Shown in pieces: positions 23,274-42,315 of a stretch of 43,196 nucleotides of DNA (position 1 is the first letter of the stretch; each line of letters opens with the position of its first letter). The stretch comes from Candidatus Saccharimonadota bacterium (GTDB taxonomy: Bacteria; Patescibacteriota; Saccharimonadia; Saccharimonadales; UBA4665). The notes below the pieces were generated by a model. It did no database searches. It saw nothing but the letters and a program-made list of their open reading frames with translations, and was not told the origin of the DNA. The stretch lies in NCBI GenBank assembly GCA_020427965.1, contig JAGQNT010000177.1, positions 1-43,196 of the forward strand, given 5' to 3'. The position numbers and the translations under genes were made by a program.

Positions 23274-24620
23274 TTAACCTCGAGCGTCAATGAGCTTAAT
23301 GGAATCCCTACTAATTTCCGAGTTAATTGTGTATGGAATAGCATTCTCGTCCAGGGCGAACATAGTATATATCTCTACAAGGATTCCATACGCATCCTTT
23401 TCTGCAGTGCCCGTTCCGTCGAGCTTCGCACTTGAATAGTCTTTTTGTGCGACTACTGAGTCATGTATGTCAAAACCACTGGGCGTGCCAGCATAGAGTC
23501 GAACCTCTGAGGCTTTCAGATTTTTACCCTCGGTAAAGTATGACCATGTATTGAGCCCGCGTTTAGCTAAGTAGTTTCTAATAAACCTTGTGAATTCGTA
23601 CGTCATTTCAACTAATACGATGGAATTTATTGTTGTTCCGCTCTGGCCAGGGTCTTTATTTACGGCCCAACCTGCCAATTCTGGGGAGATTTTTAATACT
23701 AGCGTTAGCGTACCATTGGGGTCGAGTCTCAGTATTGCATCACGCGAACCAGTCTTAACTAGCGCTCCATCAATTTTTTCCGCTCTGGCCCCCAAAGAAT
23801 CGAGATTAAAGCCCATCCCTCTGATTGGACTTGTTGAGCTAAATTCCTTTGCTAGATCAGAGTAGAAGCCCTCTAATCTAGCTCTTGTGGAGTGTGGTAT
23901 CGTCTGCAACAAAATGTATGGGTCTTTATCCCAGCCCTGAGTGCCAATAACGTATTCGCGGATTCCCTTCGCTTGTTTCTCGTTTTCGGCAATAGTTTTG
24001 CTCATAGTTTCATTTATCTTTGCTCGGTCCGTCTTTTGAAAAATCTCTCGCGTTTGAGTGGAACTTCTCCTGATTCTTTCATATACCGTTTCCGGGCGCA
24101 TCCAGTATGTTTGATCGTCTACTCGCTCGGGTATGCCGACAAAACCGTCAATCTGATTACCATTCTCGCTCATTAAGTGTCTAATGACATGTGGCTTATC
24201 GTGGCTTTTGGGGATAATGATTGCAAACAGCCCCTTCTTTGGCTCTGTTGGATACCACTTGAAACGTACTGACTTGTTGAGGGGGTACATCCACTCGCTG
24301 AGAATATCCTTGTAGTGTTTCTGGTCTATGGCTGTAATCTTTATTGAAGTTATTGCGCCCGCCACCGGTATGTTTTCGGTCTCACTGCGCTTCTCTTGAA
24401 CACCGATCAGTAGAATGCCTCCATCGGCGTTAGAAAATGCTGCAACGTCCTTGCTAAGTTCAGAGCGACCAGTCTGAGATAGTACAAGCGGTTTTCCCGG
24501 TAAGGTTTCGTATTGTGAACGCTTAAAGTCAACCCAGTCACTTTCGGGGGTATCTAGTATTTTTTCGTATTCAGCCCCTTCTAAGGCTTGGATAAGCTCG
24601 GCTTTATTCTCCACTGCCAT
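23274..24620 (-). CDS. AlbA_2 (Schlafen-type) domain protein
   Basis: 448 residues. The N-terminal ~150 residues form an AlbA_2 domain: ESDWVDFKRSQY, then LSKDVAAFSNADGGILLIGVQEK, and later FAIIIPKSHDKPHVI, typical of the Schlafen AlbA_2 fold linked to nucleic-acid binding or tRNA/RNA cleavage. A basic helical linker (residues ~185-225) leads to a C-terminal ~220-residue beta-rich domain I do not recognise. GTGACA - 17 nt - TAAGAT precedes the start, and the ATG at 24620 is 6 nt after the -10, so the start there is preferred over 24626. It is divergent from the HEPN-like gene with overlapping control regions; such pairs are common in antiphage or toxin loci. Confidence 0.78.
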   Translation of the reverse strand: MAVENKAELIQALEGAEYEKILDTPESDWVDFKRSQYETLPGKPLVLSQTGRSELSKDVAAFSNADGGILLIGVQEKRSETENIPVAGAITSIKITAIDQKHYKDILSEWMYPLNKSVRFKWYPTEPKKGLFAIIIPKSHDKPHVIRHLMSENGNQIDGFVGIPERVDDQTYWMRPETVYERIRRSSTQTREIFQKTDRAKINETMSKTIAENEKQAKGIREYVIGTQGWDKDPYILLQTIPHSTRARLEGFYSDLAKEFSSTSPIRGMGFNLDSLGARAEKIDGALVKTGSRDAILRLDPNGTLTLVLKISPELAGWAVNKDPGQSGTTINSIVLVEMTYEFTRFIRNYLAKRGLNTWSYFTEGKNLKASEVRLYAGTPSGFDIHDSVVAQKDYSSAKLDGTGTAEKDAYGILVEIYTMFALDENAIPYTINSEISRDSIKLIDARG

Positions 24621-24697
24621 AACCATATCTTAGGGTATGATTTAATTACTGTCACTAATTGACGCTTATAACAGCTTACTGCACACTGTTAATCATA

Positions 24698-26526: not shown

Positions 26527-28251
26527 GTGGGAATGAAAGCATTTCTCATCGCACGCGTCTCGACTGCCGATCAGGTCGATGCATTGCCGGCTCAAATCTA
26601 CCGGCTCACCGACTACGCCCATGCCAAAGGGCTGGAGTACGAACTATTTGAATTTCACGAGAGTGCCTATAAGGGCACACGCGAAAAGTTCCGCGCCGTC
26701 ATTACGAAGATTCAATCTTCGACCGAGCCTATTATCATCGTGTTCGATAAGGTCGACCGGCTCACCCGAGATTCAAGTGCGGAAGAGACTCGAGTACTCA
26801 AAAAGTTGTATCAATCGGGCAAGATTGAACTTCATTTTCCGTCCGAAAACTTATTCCTTCATCAACATTCACCGTCGACCGATAAAATGCGCCTCGGGCT
26901 CAACATAGTATTCGGGGAATACTATTCAGACGCAATTAGCGACAACGTAAAGCGTAAGAATCAGCAGCTATGGCGCGATGGAGTCTGGACGAGCCTCGCT
27001 CCTTTCGGCTACAAGAACACCACCCGCGATGATGGCCGTAAGTGGATAGAGTTAGTGCCACTAAAGGCTGATGCCGTGCGAAGAGCATTCGAGCTCTATG
27101 TGACTGGCACCTATTCATTGAAATTAGTCCGGGACAAGATTATCCGTGAGTACGGCTTCACTCTAACTGCTGCACAGTGGGACAAAATCCTCAAAAACCC
27201 TTTTTATACGGGCGTCATGCGTATCAAGGGTGACTTATACCCTCACCACTACGACACAGTTATCAGCGAGGATTTATTTGAGCAGGCAAAGCGAACTCGC
27301 GGGAGTTACGCGGTCAAACCTCGGCGTTGGGCAGGCCTTCCCTATGCGTATCGCGGCCTCATCTACTGCACCGAGTGTGGCTGCAAGGTCACCTTTGAGA
27401 AAAAGAAAGGAAAATACATTTACGGCCACTGCACCCAGTACAAGGGCAAGCACGGGGCGGCGTATGTATCAGAAAATAGCCTCACAGACCAGTTACGATC
27501 AGTGTTCGTCCAGATTCGACTGCCTGACGATGCGTACGAAGAAGTCAAGCAATCCCTCCTCGCAGACGACCAGCAAGCGAGTAAAGACAGCGCGGCTAAG
27601 CTCACGAGCATCAACACGGAAATTAAAAAAGTTGAGATGAAGATAGAGCGCAACTACGATACGTATCTTGAGGGTGCTATTGCCAAAGAAATGTACCAAC
27701 GCAAGCAAAAAGAATTGTCCGAAAACAAGCGCGCTCTTGAAAGTAGTAGAAAAAATATCGAACTTGTGTCGAAAGATACTTACGACGAAGCTCTACATCT
27801 GTTGGATTTATCTCGCAGGGCTTCTGATATCTTCGAAAACTCAGAAATTGAGGAAAAACGAATTTTGCTCAATATGGTACTTTCGAACTTGGAGCTTGAA
27901 GACAAAGAACTTCGGTGGAAATTAAAAAAACCATACGATACGATGGCTTTTTGTAACGAAACTCAAAATTGGCTGGGGATGAGGGATTCGAACCCCCGAT
28001 CATGGGACCAGAACCCACTGCCTTACCACTTGGCCAATCCCCAGTACAAGGGGAAATTATACTCGAAATATCTACTTTGCGCTAGAATGACGGTATGGCG
28101 AAACAATGTCAAAGCTGCGGCATGCCCTTGCAGGACAAACAGGGTGATAACCGCGCAAGCGAAAAAGATGGCTCAAAATCCGAGAAATGGTGTAATTTGT
28201 GCTACAAAGACGGTGAATTCATTGGCCCCGACTGCACTCTGCAAGAAATGA
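26527..28251 (+). CDS. large serine recombinase (integrase), frame runs through tRNA-Gln
   Basis: GTG start with GAGGG 6 nt upstream. The resolvase domain has catalytic Ser12 in FLIARVSTADQ and, further on, FDKVDRLTRDSS. A recombinase domain follows (about 160-270, with PFGYKN and KNPFYTGVM), then a zinc ribbon (CTECGCKVTF...GHC) and a coiled coil. The expected end of the family is near residue 480, but there is no stop. The frame continues antisense through the tRNA-Gln gene (residues ~482-506, including GMRDSNPRSWDQNPLPYHL) and into the next gene, stopping at 28251. The C-terminal ~95 residues are thus host-derived and were probably acquired on integration. Confidence 0.85.
   Translation: MGMKAFLIARVSTADQVDALPAQIYRLTDYAHAKGLEYELFEFHESAYKGTREKFRAVITKIQSSTEPIIIVFDKVDRLTRDSSAEETRVLKKLYQSGKIELHFPSENLFLHQHSPSTDKMRLGLNIVFGEYYSDAISDNVKRKNQQLWRDGVWTSLAPFGYKNTTRDDGRKWIELVPLKADAVRRAFELYVTGTYSLKLVRDKIIREYGFTLTAAQWDKILKNPFYTGVMRIKGDLYPHHYDTVISEDLFEQAKRTRGSYAVKPRRWAGLPYAYRGLIYCTECGCKVTFEKKKGKYIYGHCTQYKGKHGAAYVSENSLTDQLRSVFVQIRLPDDAYEEVKQSLLADDQQASKDSAAKLTSINTEIKKVEMKIERNYDTYLEGAIAKEMYQRKQKELSENKRALESSRKNIELVSKDTYDEALHLLDLSRRASDIFENSEIEEKRILLNMVLSNLELEDKELRWKLKKPYDTMAFCNETQNWLGMRDSNPRSWDQNPLPYHLANPQYKGKLYSKYLLCARMTVWRNNVKAAACPCRTNRVITAQAKKMAQNPRNGVICATKTVNSLAPTALCKK
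27970..28043 (-). tRNA. tRNA-Gln (anticodon CUG)
   Basis: A 74-nt cloverleaf on the minus strand: acceptor TGGGGAT/ATCCCCA with U1-A72 as usual for tRNA-Gln, D-arm GCC...GGC, anticodon stem GTGGG/CCCAT with loop TTCTGGT (anticodon CTG at 28011-28009), T-arm GGGGG-TTCGAAT-CCCT, discriminator G and encoded CCA. The serine recombinase abuts its 3' end, marking it as the attachment gene. Confidence 0.95.
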
Positions 28252-31569: not shown

Positions 31570-32760
31570 ATGTCTAGCTACGCTGTTACCAACAACCAGC
31601 AGATTACGCAATCAACGCAGCTTGTGACCCTTCAGCACGTATCGGGTAAACCCCTGCTCTTTGAGCCAGGTCAGTACGCCGCCATTCACGGTTATAGGCA
31701 CGGCCGACCAATGCCTATACGTTGTTTCTCTATTGTCAGTTCACCTACCGAACAAGACATTCTACAGTTCTCAATGCGCGTAAAGGGTAAATTTACTCAC
31801 GCCATATCTGGGCTACAAAAAGGTGATAAAGTTCATGTTCAAGGCCCGTATGGTGGCTTTGTGTTGAATACGCATAATCAAAAACGTATTGTTATGCTCG
31901 CCGGCGGCATCGGTATTACGCCATTTATAAGTATGATTCGGTTTGCATCAATAACCAAAGCCGACACCGATGTCGAGTTAGTGTACTCTGTAGCCAAACA
32001 GACCGACATGCCGTTCTCGGACGAATTAACCAATTGGGATAGGTATAATCCAAATTTTAAGTACAACCTGGTCGTCAGTGATGGGCCAATCGACAAAATA
32101 AAGCACAACCGTGTGTTTCAAGGTCGGATTACACCGGAAGTGCTCGAAAAAGCCGTTGGTGCTATCTACGGGGACGTTGAAACCCAGTTTTATATTTGCG
32201 GACCGCCACCTTTCATGAACGCCATGCTTGCGATGCTCTTGGCGCATGGGGTAGCTAAGTCTCGAATAATGACTGAAGCATTCAGTCAGGGACCCAACCG
32301 GCAAACAGGTAAAATCCGCGACTGGCCCTTCAGCATGTACGCCTTAGGTGCGCTAGGACTGTCCGCGGGCAGCATGGCGGTCATGGTAAGTGACTTGGGT
32401 AAATTAGTGCCCGCCAAGAATAGCCTGCAAACTGCACCGAACCTACAGAGCGTCGGGCAGTCCAACAATCGTCAGTCAGACCTCGTCGCACTTGTTAACA
32501 GTTTTCCCGCCAGCTCGTCAGACGCACCAGCTTCTCGAGCCGTCAAAAAAGCTTTGGCAGCGGCTAAAAAGCCTACACAATCTTCGACTGTGGCCTCTAG
32601 TGGTTCAACATCGAGCTCATCATCAAGATCGACCACTTCGTCCAGTAGCTCATCTTCGAGTAGTAGTACCGGGTCAAGTACTAGCGGAAGCACCACTACA
32701 TCGACGCCTCCAACGCCTGTTTGCACAACCAATCAGAGTGGGGTTACGACATGCAATTAG
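31570..32760 (+). CDS. FNR-type flavin oxidoreductase with membrane helix and Ser-rich tail
   Basis: 396 residues. FAD-binding beta barrel (PGQYAAIHGY, then RCFSIVSSP in place of RxYS), NAD(P)-binding domain (MLAGGIGITPFISMI and YICGPPPFM). One membrane helix follows at about 258-275 (SMYALGALGLSAGSMAVMVS), then ~120 residues of Ser/Thr-rich linker that would lie outside. It is probably the cytoplasmic electron donor of the operon. The tail has no obvious ApbE flavinylation motif (DxxTGAT-like). AAGGAG precedes the ATG. Confidence 0.85.
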   Translation: MSSYAVTNNQQITQSTQLVTLQHVSGKPLLFEPGQYAAIHGYRHGRPMPIRCFSIVSSPTEQDILQFSMRVKGKFTHAISGLQKGDKVHVQGPYGGFVLNTHNQKRIVMLAGGIGITPFISMIRFASITKADTDVELVYSVAKQTDMPFSDELTNWDRYNPNFKYNLVVSDGPIDKIKHNRVFQGRITPEVLEKAVGAIYGDVETQFYICGPPPFMNAMLAMLLAHGVAKSRIMTEAFSQGPNRQTGKIRDWPFSMYALGALGLSAGSMAVMVSDLGKLVPAKNSLQTAPNLQSVGQSNNRQSDLVALVNSFPASSSDAPASRAVKKALAAAKKPTQSSTVASSGSTSSSSSRSTTSSSSSSSSSSTGSSTSGSTTTSTPPTPVCTTNQSGVTTCN

Positions 32761-33701
32761 TGCAATTTCACGAAACCAAGATGGCACTGGGTGGCGACGC
32801 GACAATTGTCATTGTCGCTAATCAGCACCGTGACATGACGGCTATTTTTAATGAATTATGGCGAGTTATCTTTACCTTCGAAAAGCAGTTCAGCCGCTTC
32901 CTGCCACAAAGTGAACTATCACAATTCAATACTCGTGCTGGACTTTGGGTGCCTATCAGTGATGAGTTCGCTGACTTACTCAAAACCACAATAAAGTTGA
33001 GTCAGTTCACTGGGAGTCTCTATAATCCCTTCATTTTGCCCGCACTGCAGCGATCGGGTTATACCCATTCCGCCGCGCCTGGCTATGAAGCCGACAGAGA
33101 TCAGGATTACCGTCATCGTGCGGTGGTACCAATCGACAAACTGACAGTGCGAGACAATCAAGCTTGCATCCCTTACGGAACGGCTTTTGACCTTGGCGGT
33201 TGCGGCAAAGGCTACTTGGCCGATACGTTAGCGGATCTATTAGACGACGCAGGATTCCATAGTTACTGGATCTCGCTCAGTGGTGATATGGTTACGTCAG
33301 GTCATGATGAACACGGGTCGCCGTGGCGTACTGTCATCCAAAATGCATATTCTGACCAAATCCCTGCCCCCGTCTTTGTCCAAACTGATGGGTCTAGACA
33401 CGCTGTTGCGACATCTGGCACCCTGCGTCGAGTCAATCAAAAGTTGTCGGGTAAGCACCATATTATTGATCCTTCTACCGGACTGTCGGCAAAAACAGAC
33501 ATCCGGCTCGCCACTGTGGTCACGACAAACGCTACCGAGGCGGACGTGCTCGCGTCTTGCGCAGTATTAACAGGCAGTAAAGATTCGGAAGATTTTCTCC
33601 GTGCTAGAAGAGTCGAGGCCGGCTACATTCAAACAACTCAGTCCGAGACTATGGCTTTTGGCCAATACTTACACACCGCCAGTGAGGTTACCTATGCTTA
33701 A
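32751..33701 (+). CDS. apbE: ApbE-family FMN:protein transferase
   Basis: 316 residues from the ATG at 32751 (GGGG 7 nt upstream), overlapping the FNR gene by 10 bp. ApbE signatures: FDLGGCGKGYLADTLADLL, WISLSGDMVTSG and HHIIDPSTGLSA with metal-site Asp/Thr. It normally attaches FMN to Ser/Thr of exported flavoproteins in an Mg2+-dependent reaction. No signal peptide is visible, so it may act in the cytoplasm. It does not carry a recognisable target; none of the neighbouring proteins has the classic flavinylation motif. Confidence 0.9.
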   Translation: MQLVQFHETKMALGGDATIVIVANQHRDMTAIFNELWRVIFTFEKQFSRFLPQSELSQFNTRAGLWVPISDEFADLLKTTIKLSQFTGSLYNPFILPALQRSGYTHSAAPGYEADRDQDYRHRAVVPIDKLTVRDNQACIPYGTAFDLGGCGKGYLADTLADLLDDAGFHSYWISLSGDMVTSGHDEHGSPWRTVIQNAYSDQIPAPVFVQTDGSRHAVATSGTLRRVNQKLSGKHHIIDPSTGLSAKTDIRLATVVTTNATEADVLASCAVLTGSKDSEDFLRARRVEAGYIQTTQSETMAFGQYLHTASEVTYA

Positions 33702-34404
33702 GAAAATGATTGTGCTTTGTTTACTCTTGTTTGGCTTCACGCTCTTCCCCCTCAGTCATCCTGTTTTAGCTGCTGATGCCGGCAATGTAGTGGTTCAAAC
33801 CATACCAGACGAGAACACTTTGGGCGACAAACTCGTTAGTCGAGCTGGCTCGTCCTGGCCATGGTATGTCGCACGCGCCTCTGGTCTGGTTGCTGCATTG
33901 GCATTGGTTATTTTGATGATATCCGGTATTGGTCAGATATCTGGCATGACTTTTCGTTTACTTGACCCGCTGACGGCCTGGGCCTCGCACAGAGCGCTTG
34001 GTATCACTTTTGGAATTGCAGTGTTAGTACACATGATCAGTCTGTTATTTGATCATTTTGTGCAGTTCAATATCTGGCAAATTTTGATCCCGTGGTTATC
34101 GGACTACCAGCCCGTTACATTACTGGGATTTCAACTTGGCAGTCTGTATGTTGCACTTGGCGTACTAGCGTTTTACTTGACGCTCGTTATTATTGTCACT
34201 TCGCTCATTTGGGTCGAACGTAAGCCCCATACATGGAAACTTATCCATCTCCTGTCGTATCTAACGATTGCCTTTGTGTTTGTTCATGCGCTATATCTTG
34301 GCACCGACCTTACCCATGGCGTTTATCGTCTCCTGTGGATTATGTTTAACGTAGGTATATTAGGACTGGCGATTACACGATCCTGGAGGGCATTTACTAC
34401 GTGA
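33694..34404 (+). CDS. ferric-reductase-like transmembrane heme protein
   Basis: 236 residues from the ATG at 33694 (GAGG upstream), overlapping apbE by 8 bp. A signal sequence (VLCLLLFGFTLFPLSHPVLA) is followed by about six helices. Candidate heme ligands are His in ASHRALG and VLVHMISLLFDH on one helix pair and in WKLIHLLSY and FVFVHALYLG on another, as in the FRE/MsrQ (YedZ) fold. It would carry electrons across the membrane from the FNR protein. It is translationally coupled to the next gene. Confidence 0.82.
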   Translation: MLKKMIVLCLLLFGFTLFPLSHPVLAADAGNVVVQTIPDENTLGDKLVSRAGSSWPWYVARASGLVAALALVILMISGIGQISGMTFRLLDPLTAWASHRALGITFGIAVLVHMISLLFDHFVQFNIWQILIPWLSDYQPVTLLGFQLGSLYVALGVLAFYLTLVIIVTSLIWVERKPHTWKLIHLLSYLTIAFVFVHALYLGTDLTHGVYRLLWIMFNVGILGLAITRSWRAFTT

Positions 34405-35303
34405 GCCGAGAACTTCGACATAGTGCCAATCCCTGGCGCATGCGTATAATTTGGGCAATTAGCTTTGTGGTACTAGTCGTACTACTATTATTCGCGTTTT
34501 ATCGGGTCTTTGACCGGATTCAGACATACTCATTGCCAAACGGTAGTGTCGAGCTGTCAGTGCCATACTCAAAATATCTTGTTGGCGAAACTATAACGTT
34601 TACCGTAAAAAATAACTTCAATAGTTCGATACAGGTCAGTAACGGCTGCCCCGGAGAGCCGCTGAGTGTATTTCGCTACGAGAAGCATAAGTGGGTGCAA
34701 ATTCACGACAAAACTAATATCAAGAACTGTGCCGATCAAGAACGGACCGTTACCATTCCTGCCAACCAGAGCATGACTGCCAGCTTTAAAAACTGGCCCC
34801 ATTTATTCAATAAGGCTGGCAAATATCGGATTGTGATGCGGGTCGACTTCTATAACTCTCTCCCTTATCAAGACTTTGAAGTTATTAATAAACCCAAGGC
34901 CTACGCTGCCGTCCATTCAGGCAGCGGGCAACCATCCACCAGCACCAAGTCCAGTACCTCCACCCAACAGAATGGAGTAAGTGAGCACGAAGACGCCAAC
35001 GAAGGTGGCTCCGCCACCCAAAACAAGGTCTACACATTGTACGTAAACTCTAGCGGCAACTACAACTTGACCAGTATTTCGATGCACGTTGGAGACACGC
35101 TCAAGATCGTGTACCAATCACCTTATCATGACGAAGTTCGTACTCGATTTACGCCCATCAATGGCACGTCTGCTTCAGTTTCTTCCGTTACAGTAGACGA
35201 GGAAAGACACAGTGGCACTCGTATATTTACTAGCGCTGGCACGTGGCGCTACAAGGCTGATGACCACAGTGGTAACAGTGGCGTCGTTACGGTGTCAAAG
35301 TAA
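34401..35303 (+). CDS. membrane-anchored two-domain beta protein (BsuPI-like plus cupredoxin-like)
   Basis: 300 residues, GTG start overlapping the previous stop (GTGA), with GGAGGG upstream. One N-terminal helix (IIWAISFVVLVVLLLFAFYRVF). Next is a domain resembling BsuPI-type beta sandwiches (SVPYSKYLVGETITFTVKN...CPGEPLSVFRY), then a Ser/Thr/Gly linker. The C-terminal domain resembles cupredoxins in layout (ISMHVGDTLKIVYQSPYHDEV...AGTWRYKADDHSGNSG), with two His but no ligand Cys, so copper binding is doubtful. Last gene of the electron-transfer operon and probably exposed outside. Confidence 0.65.
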   Translation: MSRELRHSANPWRMRIIWAISFVVLVVLLLFAFYRVFDRIQTYSLPNGSVELSVPYSKYLVGETITFTVKNNFNSSIQVSNGCPGEPLSVFRYEKHKWVQIHDKTNIKNCADQERTVTIPANQSMTASFKNWPHLFNKAGKYRIVMRVDFYNSLPYQDFEVINKPKAYAAVHSGSGQPSTSTKSSTSTQQNGVSEHEDANEGGSATQNKVYTLYVNSSGNYNLTSISMHVGDTLKIVYQSPYHDEVRTRFTPINGTSASVSSVTVDEERHSGTRIFTSAGTWRYKADDHSGNSGVVTVSK

Positions 35304-36536: not shown

Positions 36537-38450
36537 CTACTTTCTGCTACGTAACCAATTACTTAATTGCTCAATCAAGAGAATTGCGATGCCAAGACCA
36601 AACAGAATTAGGCCGAACATCAATGCTTGATTCTTACCTTGTTGCACTAATTGCTCTGCGGCCTTGGTCTGCCCCTGAATTGCGGCGCTGGTTTCTGCGG
36701 CTTTCACGTTCTTGAACGTGCTCGCAACCGTGGCCTGCAAGTTAGCACTGCCACCAGTCGTGCCACTGTATCCTCCCGTCGATGTTGTTGGGGCGAATCC
36801 AAAGGTGTGAGTAGTACCGCTTGTCATTGAACCAGACCTAGCGGCCGCAACCTTCGCCTGCTCTGTCAATATACCGAAGTTACCATTCCAGTTACCAAAC
36901 ACGTTGATAAACAGTAGGCCGAACCACCCCGTTAGATCCAGGTAACTATTAGTAATATTGTTGAGGTTTACGGCAGTCTCCGCATCGCCAGTTGTGGCAC
37001 TGCCAGCATTGGTGTTGTTAGTGACAGACGCATCACCAGTATGGGCACTGGTCGTAACATTGTTCGTAATGCCAGAGTTATTGACTGCATTTAGCTCAAC
37101 GTTGTTGGTCATAGTACTGTTGGCATTAGTTACTCCGCCACCGTATGCGGCCGCCGTCGCACCGACCGGCGCATTCATGAGTACACCAACCCAGTTGCCT
37201 AGCACATTTACGAATACCAACATAGCATTCCCACCCGACACCTGTAGACCTGTGATGTCAAATATAGTCACATTAGTCTTGGCGTTGCCAGATGTAGCGC
37301 TCCCCGCATTTGTATTACCAGACACGGTGGCATTGCCTGTACTTGCCGTGCTATTTACATTGTTTGCAATTGAGGAAGTGCTGTTGATATTCGCTACGAA
37401 GTTATTCAAAGTATTCTGTGACACGGTTACATCCGAATGTGGCGCATTACTAGCCAGTAAACTATCGAGGAATTTTTGTGGCATCAGAATATTGCCATTA
37501 AAGTTACCGTTAATGTTTATAACGCCCAAGAAAGACTGCTGCGCAGAGATCATGGAATTGACCATGTTTACCACGTTGGCAACAGCCTGGGCATTACCGC
37601 TCGTGGCATTGCCCGCGTTAGCATTATTCGCTACTGTCGCCTTGCCGCTCGTGGCATCAAGTTGTAGGTCGTTCACTATCTGACCGTTATTGTCGACATT
37701 TAGTTGCAAGTTATTGTTGGAATTGACATTACTAGTTGTTGGCTGCAAGGCTCCCGGGTCAATGATCAAATCCCCCTGCACGTCACCATCAATATTGGCT
37801 ACAAACGTTGCGGCAGTAGCACCCAAATCGGAATTAGACTGTAGCATATTGATGACATTAGCTATCGATTGCGCATTACCGCTTGCCGCACTGCCAGCCA
37901 CTGTGTTGTTCATAACAGTGGCATCACCAGTTGTCGAAGTAGAACCTAGCTTGTTGGTAACGGTCGCGTTGGTTGTGGAGTTGATGGTAGCGTCATTGTC
38001 AATATTGGTTGTACTGGTATTTTCGACAGGAACAATCGGTGCGGGTCCGCCAACTGTTTTCGCACCAGAAGGTGGGCTACTGACAGAATACATATCCTGT
38101 GACCAAACCTGAGCAGACGGGCTGTAGTTCCAGATCTTGTAGTCCCACTTGCAGCTGACATCATTATAGGTATAGACTCTCTCGTCTTTTGGCGTCCTGA
38201 CTTGAGTTGAGGGGTCCCAAGTATAATGCGGGTTTTCCCACAGGCCAGTACATGAATTATATGTGTACGTACTACTGTCCGAACCGGTCGGTTGCTGAAT
38301 GCCGGTCGGCGCAGCTGCAACAGGCGAACATGCAGGCTCGTCTGCATACACATATACAGGTGCTGGTGTGCCAAGTATCAATAAAAGGGCGAGGCTGCCA
38401 CTAAGAACACGTCTGGTTGTCTGTTTGATCTGCGTAAGAATGTCTGTCAT
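36537..38450 (-). CDS. large surface repeat protein, four Asn/Gly repeat units, C-terminal anchor
   Basis: 637 residues. Signal sequence (VLSGSLALLLILGTPAPVYVYA), then a Trp/Tyr-rich N-terminal region (YTYNSCTGLWENPHYTW and YTYNDVSCKWDYKIWNY). At least four units follow, with core (S/T)G(N/D/K)A(T/S)V-x2-NT(N/V)AG-x-A-x-(S/T)G(N/D)A, each followed by a hydrophobic patch such as FLGVININGNFNG. It ends in a helix (ALMFGLILFGLGIAILLI) plus RSRK. The composition (Asn, Ala, Thr, Ser, Val; few charges) suggests a beta-helix or amyloid-like fibre on the cell surface. It shares its repeat with the genes at 38536 and 39895. Confidence 0.72.
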   Translation of the reverse strand: MTDILTQIKQTTRRVLSGSLALLLILGTPAPVYVYADEPACSPVAAAPTGIQQPTGSDSSTYTYNSCTGLWENPHYTWDPSTQVRTPKDERVYTYNDVSCKWDYKIWNYSPSAQVWSQDMYSVSSPPSGAKTVGGPAPIVPVENTSTTNIDNDATINSTTNATVTNKLGSTSTTGDATVMNNTVAGSAASGNAQSIANVINMLQSNSDLGATAATFVANIDGDVQGDLIIDPGALQPTTSNVNSNNNLQLNVDNNGQIVNDLQLDATSGKATVANNANAGNATSGNAQAVANVVNMVNSMISAQQSFLGVININGNFNGNILMPQKFLDSLLASNAPHSDVTVSQNTLNNFVANINSTSSIANNVNSTASTGNATVSGNTNAGSATSGNAKTNVTIFDITGLQVSGGNAMLVFVNVLGNWVGVLMNAPVGATAAAYGGGVTNANSTMTNNVELNAVNNSGITNNVTTSAHTGDASVTNNTNAGSATTGDAETAVNLNNITNSYLDLTGWFGLLFINVFGNWNGNFGILTEQAKVAAARSGSMTSGTTHTFGFAPTTSTGGYSGTTGGSANLQATVASTFKNVKAAETSAAIQGQTKAAEQLVQQGKNQALMFGLILFGLGIAILLIEQLSNWLRSRK

Positions 38451-38489
38451 GTGGTCAATGCCCCTTGATTACGTTAATAGTCGTTGTGT

Positions 38490-38517
38490 GGAGTGGGCTC
38501 TGCACAGAGCCCACTCC
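38490..38517 (-). repeat. 12-bp perfect intercistronic hairpin
   Basis: GGAGTGGGCTCT-gcac-AGAGCCCACTCC between the 198-aa and 637-aa genes. The stem is perfect and GC-rich with no T-run, so it is more likely an mRNA processing or stability element (or a partial terminator adjusting relative expression) than a simple terminator. Confidence 0.6.
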
Positions 38518-38535
38518 GCTACATACGCAAGCAAT

Positions 38536-39132
38536 CTAGTTACTGATGCTAACGGTTGTTGAACTACTACTTGTGTTAGAAGCAGCTCCGGTGGTTGCGC
38601 TCCCACCATTAGTGTTACCGCTCACAGTAGCCGAACCGCTACTCGCGGATTGCGAATTGCTGTTCTCTACGGTTATGCAGTTATTGTTCTCGACGTGCAA
38701 ACTGTTCTTGTTTACAGTCAGGACCATATTGTCTGAGTTTGGCCCAGTTGTGTCCATCGTAACCTTGGTTGTGTTACTTGCCCCAGCAGCTGCAGTTGGG
38801 CTAGAGTTCTTGACACTGACTGATGTCGCAAATGAGTTAGTATTCTTGGCATCACCCGACTTGGCGCTGCCACCATTAGTGTTGCCAGTGACAGACGCCG
38901 AACCACTGTTGGCACTCTGGCTGTTACTGTTGCCAACGCTCGCGTGGTTATTGTTAGTCCAATGGACATAACTTTTGTTAATAGTTTTGACATGGTTCGA
39001 CGAGTACGGACCAGTGTCTGTCAGCGTCGCTGTGGTGTTCGAACTTGCCCCAGCAACACCAGCCAAAGCAACTGCTGCACCAAGGGTAGCCAAGGTTCCA
39101 GCGGTAGCTTTTGATAGTTTGATTCGAGTCAT
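38536..39132 (-). CDS. secreted repeat protein, two Asn/Gly repeat units
   Basis: 198 residues. Signal sequence (AGTLATLGAAVALAGVAGAS). Two ~85-residue units follow, each with TGP-x-SxNxVxT(I/V)NK, an NNN-x-(A/I)(S/T)V stretch, NSNSQSA(N/S)SGSA(S/T)V and GNTNGGSA. No anchor, so it is free or assembled into a fibre with the 637-aa and 188-aa proteins. GAGGAGG lies 5-6 nt before the ATG. One Cys only. Confidence 0.72.
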   Translation of the reverse strand: MTRIKLSKATAGTLATLGAAVALAGVAGASSNTTATLTDTGPYSSNHVKTINKSYVHWTNNNHASVGNSNSQSANSGSASVTGNTNGGSAKSGDAKNTNSFATSVSVKNSSPTAAAGASNTTKVTMDTTGPNSDNMVLTVNKNSLHVENNNCITVENSNSQSASSGSATVSGNTNGGSATTGAASNTSSSSTTVSISN

Positions 39133-39173
39133 GTTGACCTCCTCTTAGTTAGTTATTTTTAGTTGATATTACC

Positions 39174-39231
39174 GGGATGTTCCCCCGACTCGCGACATAA
39201 AGCGGTTAGCCGCTAGTCGGGCGAGCATCCC
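39174..39231 (-). repeat. nested three-part hairpin in intergenic region
   Basis: GGGATG/CATCCC (39174-39179 with 39226-39231) encloses CCCGACT/AGTCGGG (39184-39190 with 39215-39221), which encloses AGCGG-ttag-CCGCT (39201-39214). Eighteen base pairs in all, between the 176-aa and 198-aa genes. Probably an RNA structure in the leader of the 198-aa gene, or a terminator of the 176-aa gene without a T-run. Confidence 0.55.
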
Positions 39232-39237
39232 ATTCGC

Positions 39238-39765
39238 CTAGGGCGTATTTGTTGTTTCGTTGTTTATCTGAACACTGAGAGAAGTTGAATTATCACTACC
39301 AATCGTATCGTTATCAGATGAAACATCAATCTGAGTTGTTGAACCATCTTCGCCCGTTATAGTCTTGTGTAACTCGCCACTCTTATCGACATGCAACCTG
39401 CGACCATTGACCCGAACAGATGTCTCGGACGCATCTGAGGTACTTTTGGATTCAACAGAAACACTTTGGCCACTGTGCGTAGTCGTATTCGTCGTCCCTT
39501 GGTCCTGAATCGAAACAGATGACTGTGTCGCTGAAGACGTGCTGGCTGCTTGTTTCATCAACTCTCCCTGTGATTGATTCGTCACTTCGGTTGCGGCTGG
39601 CAGATTACTGTCACTGCCCATGACGATACCCTGCAAGGCAACCAGTGCAAGAGGCAGTAAGGCAACAATTAAGAGCTTTACGTATCGGCCACCCCGACTT
39701 CGGGTCGTTGTACGTGATTGTCGACCTCTCGAACGCAATAGCCGATTTGTCGTCCACTGCAACAT
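39238..39765 (-). CDS. membrane-anchored Ser/Thr-rich protein
   Basis: 175 residues from the ATG at 39765 (GGGAGGGG upstream; the GTG at 39768 is too close to the site). Arg-rich cytoplasmic start, one helix (VKLLIVALLPLALVALQGIVM), then an extracellular tail of low-complexity Ser, Thr, Gln and Asp with beta-prone patches (SVSIQD, SVSVESK, TSLSVQIN). It lacks the GNTNGG core but shares composition and location with the repeat proteins. The upstream region (39843-39854) carries CGCTTATGTAA. Confidence 0.6.
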   Translation of the reverse strand: MLQWTTNRLLRSRGRQSRTTTRSRGGRYVKLLIVALLPLALVALQGIVMGSDSNLPAATEVTNQSQGELMKQAASTSSATQSSVSIQDQGTTNTTTHSGQSVSVESKSTSDASETSVRVNGRRLHVDKSGELHKTITGEDGSTTQIDVSSDNDTIGSDNSTSLSVQINNETTNTP

Positions 39766-39894
39766 CACACCCCTCCCTGCCTGATATGCACTTAGTTACA
39801 AATACTATCTGTTATGGTACGTATTTTGTCAGTTAGATAACTTACCTCGCTTATGTAACTCACCTACCTGACCGACGCAGCAAAAGCCACGACT

Positions 39895-40461
39895 CTAGTT
39901 GGATATCGAAATACCCGTTGAGGTTTCATTTTTGTTTGATGCATCACCAGAATCCGCATTGCCTCCGTTAGTATTGCCGCTCACTGTTGCCGAGCTGCTG
40001 GATGCTTGCTGATTATTTTCATTAATCACAGACACATTATTGTTGTTTGTGATCTCTGTACTATTTCGATTAACTGTCGTGATCTGATTGGTTGAACCGG
40101 GGCCCGTGTTATGCATACTAGCTACGGTCGTGTTACTGTACACAATCTTTTCAACAACTTCATTACTGCTACTAGACCCTCCCCCTCCACTACCACCGCT
40201 TGGCATTGGAGCCGGTGCCTTCGGCTTGGCTGTACTGGAAGCACCACCGACATCATTTGGGCTATAACATTCCGACAGCGAACTGACTGGTCGAGCCTGC
40301 AAATCGCGCGTTGCAGCTGCAATCTCTGACCGAACCATAGGTCCGACCATAGCAAGCGAAGCCACAACGCCCACGACCACTCCCGATAGGGTCGCCACGA
40401 ACGTGTAGAGGTTGCTGGTTTGGATTTTGGCAGTTTTGGATTTTTGCCGAGCATGTGCCAT
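39895..40461 (-). CDS. membrane-anchored protein with one Asn/Gly repeat unit
   Basis: 188 residues. TM helix (TFVATLSGVVVGVVASLAMVGPM), a short Cys-containing stretch (SECYSPNDVGG), a Pro/Gly/Ser linker, then one unit matching the 198-aa protein: NTGPGSTNQITTVNRN, NNNNVSVINENNQQASSSSATV, GNTNGGNADSGDA, ending ISISN. AAGGAGGG precedes the ATG. It could be the membrane base or nucleator of a fibre formed by the other repeat proteins. The long upstream region (40462-40662) is AT-rich and contains CGCTTATGTAA (minus) and the palindrome TTGCTTATGCAA. Confidence 0.7.
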   Translation of the reverse strand: MAHARQKSKTAKIQTSNLYTFVATLSGVVVGVVASLAMVGPMVRSEIAAATRDLQARPVSSLSECYSPNDVGGASSTAKPKAPAPMPSGGSGGGGSSSSNEVVEKIVYSNTTVASMHNTGPGSTNQITTVNRNSTEITNNNNVSVINENNQQASSSSATVSGNTNGGNADSGDASNKNETSTGISISN

Positions 40462-41651: not shown

Positions 41652-41972
41652 TCAAGTTATTCGCTTTCTAGCCAAAGGCCAACGAAGCCTGCCAACAATC
41701 TCTTGTTGCTTTACCCAGCCAAAGTGGCGACTGTCTTTGCTGGCACTCACATTGTCTCCAATCAAAAATAATTCGTCACCACGAATTTCAAGAATTCGTT
41801 TCACTTTTTCTATACCGCCATGGCGCACCATGACAATATCACCGACTTTCGGTCGACGAGATTTCGTAAATAACACAAGCTGCCCAGGTTTGAGCGTTGG
41901 ATGCATACTATCACCCACAATGCGACGTAGCTTAGGCGTTCTTTGTGGCTTTGAAGATTTCGGCGATTTCAT
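41652..41972 (-). CDS. sodX: S26-family peptidase, probable Ni-SOD maturation protease
   Basis: 106 residues. Catalytic Ser22 in GDSMHPTLKPGQLV and Lys58 in EKVKRILEI form the Ser-Lys dyad of signal peptidase-like S26 enzymes; GDNVSASKDSRHFG is the third conserved box. There is no membrane anchor, as in SodX, which trims the leader of SodN. The frame can start at TTG 41975 or ATG 41972; either way it overlaps the 3' end of sodN by about 40 bp, a strong sign of coupling. Confidence 0.85.
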   Translation of the reverse strand: MKSPKSSKPQRTPKLRRIVGDSMHPTLKPGQLVLFTKSRRPKVGDIVMVRHGGIEKVKRILEIRGDELFLIGDNVSASKDSRHFGWVKQQEIVGRLRWPLARKRIT

Positions 41973-42315
41973 CAATCATCTCAATCAATTTTTGGCCCTC
42001 TTCTGGCTCGCTGTGGTGCTTACACTCGCCCGCCTGCTTCGTAGCTTTCCAGAATTTATCATGCAAATCTGGGTATTTTTCGAGGTGTTCTGGCTTAAAG
42101 TAATCCGTCCACAGTACCCATAAATGATGTTTTACAAGTTCAGCACGCTCTTCCTTGATAAACAAAGCCCGCGTCCGATCATCCCCCTCAAAGTCTTTCA
42201 TTTTGGTTTGTATGGCGTACACGCTTTTGGCCTCGATCATTGCTTGTGCCGGATCGTACACACCGCACGGCAAATCACAGTGCGCGTAGACTGGTTTGAT
42301 CGAAAATAACTTCAT
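41932..42315 (-). CDS. sodN: nickel superoxide dismutase precursor
   Basis: 127 residues. An 11-residue leader ends in VYA, followed by HCDLPCGVYDPAQA: the nickel hook with His12 (becomes His1), Cys13 and Cys17 after cleavage. The mature chain would be 116 residues, close to the usual 117. It dismutates superoxide. AAGGAGG lies 4-5 nt before the ATG. The processing enzyme is the overlapping downstream gene. Co-occurrence leaves little doubt. Confidence 0.95.
   Translation of the reverse strand: MKLFSIKPVYAHCDLPCGVYDPAQAMIEAKSVYAIQTKMKDFEGDDRTRALFIKEERAELVKHHLWVLWTDYFKPEHLEKYPDLHDKFWKATKQAGECKHHSEPEEGQKLIEMIDEIAEIFKATKNA

Follow-up and report, generated by a model that had tools for sequence, protein, structure and literature searches.

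The window, the whole 43,196-nucleotide stretch of DNA analysed here, carries on its minus strand four genes transcribed in the order D-C-B-A, separated by gaps of 126, 105, and 85 bases and followed by two small membrane-protein genes. Gene D (39895 to 40461, minus strand, as are all features of this cluster) encodes a protein of 188 amino acids with an N-terminal transmembrane (TM) segment, a Gly/Ser linker, and a single repeat unit at its extreme C-terminus. Gene C (39238 to 39765; 175 amino acids) encodes an N-terminal TM segment, a Ser/Thr-rich stalk, and a conserved domain with the pattern VNGQ-xxx-VPxNG. Gene B (38536 to 39132; 198 amino acids), whose product is the proposed major subunit, has a signal-peptide-like start followed by two bare units, ends on its last predicted strand, and has no anchor. 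Gene A (36537 to 38450; 637 amino acids) encodes an N-terminal hydrophobic helix, a beta-hairpin domain (residues ~48 to 135), four repeat modules, a C-terminal TM helix, and a basic tail; the AlphaFold model shows the N-terminal hydrophobic helix and places the TM helix at residues 608 to 636. The anchors are thus as the earlier note had claimed, C-terminal in A, N-terminal in D, and absent from the secreted-type B. A PGPGW-family small membrane protein gene (36540 to 36298, minus strand) begins 5 bases past A and may be on the A transcript.

Several other gene groups lie in the window. At 41655 to 42315 (minus strand), a nickel superoxide dismutase gene (PF09055, E 1.3e-42) overlaps a gene for an S26/S24-type peptidase, which is probably the maturation protease of that dismutase; proteins resembling this dismutase and peptidase are also encoded upstream of a related operon, at 1776 to 2536 of locus L051 (G029). 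On the plus strand, a redox gene group (31570 to 35303) encodes an FAD/NAD oxidoreductase, an ApbE flavin transferase, and a weakly ferric-reductase-like membrane protein, and ends with a protein that matches an Ig-like domain weakly and, below the cut-off, has a stretch resembling plastocyanin. A large serine recombinase and a Schlafen/AlbA_2 protein, encoded at 26527 to 28251 (plus strand) and 23274 to 24626 (minus strand), are possible remains of a mobile element.

Inspection of the translations revealed seven homologous units in three proteins, four in A, two in B, and one in D. Their 19-residue cores start at residues 175, 269, 372, and 472 of A, residues 77 and 166 of B, and residue 156 of D. 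In A they read GDATVMNNTVAGSAASGNA (37872 to 37928), GKATVANNANAGNATSGNA (37590 to 37646), GNATVSGNTNAGSATSGNA (37281 to 37337), and GDASVTNNTNAGSATTGDA (36981 to 37037); the B cores lie at 38848 to 38904 and 38581 to 38637, and the single copy in D, at 39940 to 39996, is divergent (SSATVSGNTNGGNADSGDA). All three proteins were matched by a profile of the B family made without the B protein of the window. When scored on the four proteins, this profile gave 176.4 bits for B, 75.0 for D, and 73.8 for A, values that were not reached by any of 300 shuffled copies of each protein, and it gave a score of 0 for C, which is likewise Ser/Thr-rich. Across the whole genome it matched the A, B, and D genes only. 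Direct alignment of the A-unit and B-unit profiles by hhalign yielded a probability of 97.4 with an E value of 1.4e-11, and Gly, Asn, and Trp positions were invariant across 54 A proteins. After its signal peptide, B consists of two units and nothing else, with Asn as the last residue in 47 of 52 B proteins. The profile matches, the shuffle controls, and the zero score of C show that the homology is real; the count of four, two, and one units around a common core, given in the earlier note, is therefore confirmed. The units of A, B, D, and the LPxT-type relatives described below are one homologous beta module.

AlphaFold modelling of A from 54 sequences produced an N-terminal beta-hairpin domain, four all-beta repeat modules with pLDDT of ~93 to 97, and the C-terminal TM helix. 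The well-formed modules remove, for A, the objection that the repeats might be disordered without a regular fold. B modelled alone gave a poor result (pLDDT 55, pTM 0.35), with the same strand order in both units. The hairpin domain of A (38000 to 38300, minus strand), modelled with high confidence, carries a YTYN-x-TG-x-W pattern, is missing from some relatives, and has a weak, non-significant likeness to PDB entry 4r03 both by profile and by fold. In the C-terminal conserved domain of C, 9 of 44 relatives gave a weak match to Glucodextran_B, an Ig-like family (best E 1.1e-4), and C is therefore probably a stalk anchored in the membrane and topped by a beta-sandwich head.

Searches of A, B, C, and D against Pfam, NCBIfam, PHROG, and PDB sequences returned nothing credible, and neither did Pfam scans of each of 52 B and 54 A relatives. 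The statement that no named family was known has accordingly stood, and the units matched no known repeat family. The curlin repeat (PF07012) was matched by none of these 106 proteins, nor by the proteins of the window, and no SLH or S-layer family was matched among the 106; curlin, S-layer, MSCRAMM, and other Pfam or NCBIfam identities were rejected as absent or as isolated weak matches. No ligand-binding or host-binding domain was found in the operon proteins. Fold searches with the A and B models against PDB, and with the A model against a viral library, gave no significant match. FapC ranked first among PDB folds for A (E 0.5) and was the sole match for B (E 8.5), both far from significance, and we take this model-based ranking as a lead only. 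A phage origin was rejected, as no relative was found among the viral contigs searched. No paper describing the repeat family turned up in the literature library that was searched.

We then followed the genes through other genomes. Of 60 related genomes, 14 contained A and 17 contained B-like repeats, and the 12 loci retrieved in full all had the order C, B, A. Scanning 84,980 species genomes yielded 55 loci, almost all of which carry the title Saccharibacteria, Patescibacteria, or "bacterium". In 52 of the 54 Saccharibacteria loci where A is full-length, B lay directly upstream of A, and a recognisable C preceded the pair in 43. The Ser/Thr-rich membrane protein that the earlier note placed among the repeat proteins is thus a conserved partner, not a bystander. 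These loci come from metagenome assemblies, some of them mislabelled, and their open reading frames were called mechanically, so that start codons may be off. Two loci that carry the operon, L065 and L091, are titled Rhodoglobus sp. and Chlamydiae bacterium, titles that are probably wrong or reflect mixed bins. In profile searches, 34 of 380 genomes drawn from across the Patescibacteria phylum had a match to A, and 63 of 393 genomes from the class had one to B. Most of 20 distant Patescibacteria loci inspected kept the B-A order, often with a repeat protein bearing an LPxTG-type C-terminal signal right after A. Outside Patescibacteria nothing convincing appeared at the sensitivity used. Since only a minority of genomes carry A or the repeat, the operon is not a universal attachment device. 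In 16 of 55 loci a gene for a CRP-type regulator was found close to the operon, often immediately behind A (L072, L078, L083, L087 to L090, L099, L105, L107, L111, L113, and others).

Sequence clustering and catalytic motifs identified a sortase in 16 of the 55 loci, and the four sortases checked against Pfam all passed the cut-off. With about three sortases per 1.4-Mb genome, we estimate that chance alone would place roughly one such neighbour among 55 loci of ~11 kb. All 16 sortase loci encode an adjacent one-unit repeat protein whose C-terminal end consists of an LPxT-like motif (LANTS in one of them), a hydrophobic segment, and a basic tail. The locus in the window has no sortase, and no repeat protein with an LPxT signal was found in its genome despite three sortases there. 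Proteins of the D type, with an N-terminal TM segment and a C-terminal unit, occur in the window and in L066, L072, L074, L075, and L111, and none of these loci has a pair of sortase and LPxT repeat protein nearby. This distribution suggests that the D-type protein and the sortase/LPxT pair are alternative anchors, in numbers too small to prove exclusion.

The gaps on both sides of B contain stem-loops. The one between B and A (ggagtgggctctgtgcagagcccactcc, 38490 to 38517; gap z −3.6) and the one between C and B (39174 to 39231; gap z −4.2) both lack a T-tract, and both are conserved in position. In the 80 nt after the stop codon, a folding z below −2 was found in 72% of loci after C, 68% after B, and 25% after A, compared with 21% of 67 ordinary same-strand gaps used as a control. 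In 16 distant Patescibacteria loci the signal was present in 81% after B versus 13% after A. The hairpin sequences vary among the loci compared, and none matched Rfam. Simple terminators were rejected as an explanation because U-tracts are almost absent. A promoter search of the operon gave consensus matches no commoner than in shuffles. The Shine-Dalgarno sites of B were stronger than those of A (p 0.001), and also stronger than those of other ORFs. In Clostridium cellulolyticum, the stoichiometry of a complex of several proteins is set by stem-loops at the 3' ends of strongly transcribed genes (PMC4423207). We infer from the stem-loops flanking B and its strong Shine-Dalgarno sites that B is made in excess and is the major subunit.

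We compared the operon with known fibre systems. The Fap system of Pseudomonas likewise builds a minor and a major subunit, FapB and FapC, from common Asn/Gly-rich imperfect repeats; to the eye, the published FapC repeat motif looks like the unit, and in a comparison with the Greek-key cross-beta layer of each Fap repeat the order of long and short strands was similar, with FapC fold-match E values of only 0.5 to 8.5. However, hhalign scores against FapC were no better than those of column-shuffled controls, so FapC homology was rejected, and the B profile had no match at E up to 10 among PDB sequences that included FapC chains. The operon also differs in being anchored by TM helices and sortase motifs, and no Fap accessory genes were recognised in the clustered neighbourhoods. 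The operon may work in the manner of the FapC amyloid, whereas membership in Fap is not supported by sequence. Curli (CsgA/CsgB) offer the idea of a major subunit with a nucleator and short repeating strands with a high content of Asn, Gln, Ser, and Gly, but the unit here is far longer, and the curlin repeat is missing from the 52 B and 54 A proteins. Gram-positive sortase-assembled pili recall the dedicated sortase beside an LPxT module protein in 16 of 55 loci; in contrast to their shafts, B, as the presumed major subunit, carries no sorting signal, so that a sortase cannot join the shaft covalently, and the locus in the window lacks a sortase. Type IV pili of the Saccharibacterium TM7x are surface fibres of the same group that mediate host binding (PMC12206443), but the operon genes have no pilin or pilus-machinery match.

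On balance, and with little to spare, we judge it probable that D-C-B-A is a Patescibacteria operon for a surface fibre or fibrous coat, with A as scaffold or nucleator, B as subunit, and D or LPxT proteins as anchors. An excess of B would be secreted, and the two bare modules of each molecule would stack end to end with those of other B molecules through exposed end strands, giving a non-covalent filament of amyloid-like or beta-solenoid type. A, anchored through its C-terminal TM helix, would present four stacked modules and serve as the scaffold or nucleator bound to the cell. One stalked module would tie the assembly to the membrane through D, as in the window, or in other lineages to the wall through the LPxT protein and its adjacent sortase, and C would play an accessory part in the membrane. 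Most likely the assembly would be used for contact with host cells or surfaces. The view of the cluster as a multi-component surface system with subunit and anchors has been strengthened by the C-B-A order, the sortase with its LPxT repeat protein, and the expression signature of B. A more ambitious proposal, possible but doubtful, is that the operon defines a new Patescibacteria-specific class of functional-amyloid-like fibres, with no sequence relationship to curli or Fap, in which an over-expressed two-module subunit sits on a four-module membrane nucleator, is anchored by a dedicated sortase substrate or a TM protein, and serves host contact.

The same gene set is also compatible with a two-dimensional coat, S-layer-like or a sheath, in which A and B tile the surface and are held by the A TM helix and the LPxT or D anchors. 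An abundant secreted B fits a coat too, as does one module carried by several different anchors; we nevertheless consider a coat unlikely, since mature B is small, its exposed strand ends favour linear stacking, and S-layer and SLH families are unmatched in the A and B proteins. We regard it as less likely still that the proteins are separate, non-polymerising adhesins or wall stalks sharing a module through gene duplication. The LPxT proteins, D, and C do resemble stalked surface proteins, in which module duplication is frequent, but this reading leaves the near-invariant B-A pairing, the units-only architecture of B, and the B-specific stem-loops unexplained. That the repeats are Asn/Ser/Gly low-complexity spacers with neither fold nor specific role is highly improbable and already weakened: the biased composition and the low-confidence B model speak for it, against which stand the invariant Gly, Asn, and Trp positions of 54 A proteins, the pLDDT of 93 to 97 in the A modules, and the conservation of the operon.

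Beyond the earlier note, the analysis of this surface-fibre candidate adds a Patescibacteria-wide operon, a link to sortases, and conserved stem-loops. It brings to light an unannotated gene set whose order and architecture are kept across many Patescibacteria lineages, with proposed roles that are testable protein by protein. Should B form fibres, bacteria would have one more family of amyloid-like appendages, with sequences independent of those of curli and Fap and, here, a link to sortase anchoring. Little is known of the ways in which Patescibacteria recognise their hosts and keep hold of them (PMC12206443), and these genes give a testable route to how such tiny episymbiotic cells meet them.
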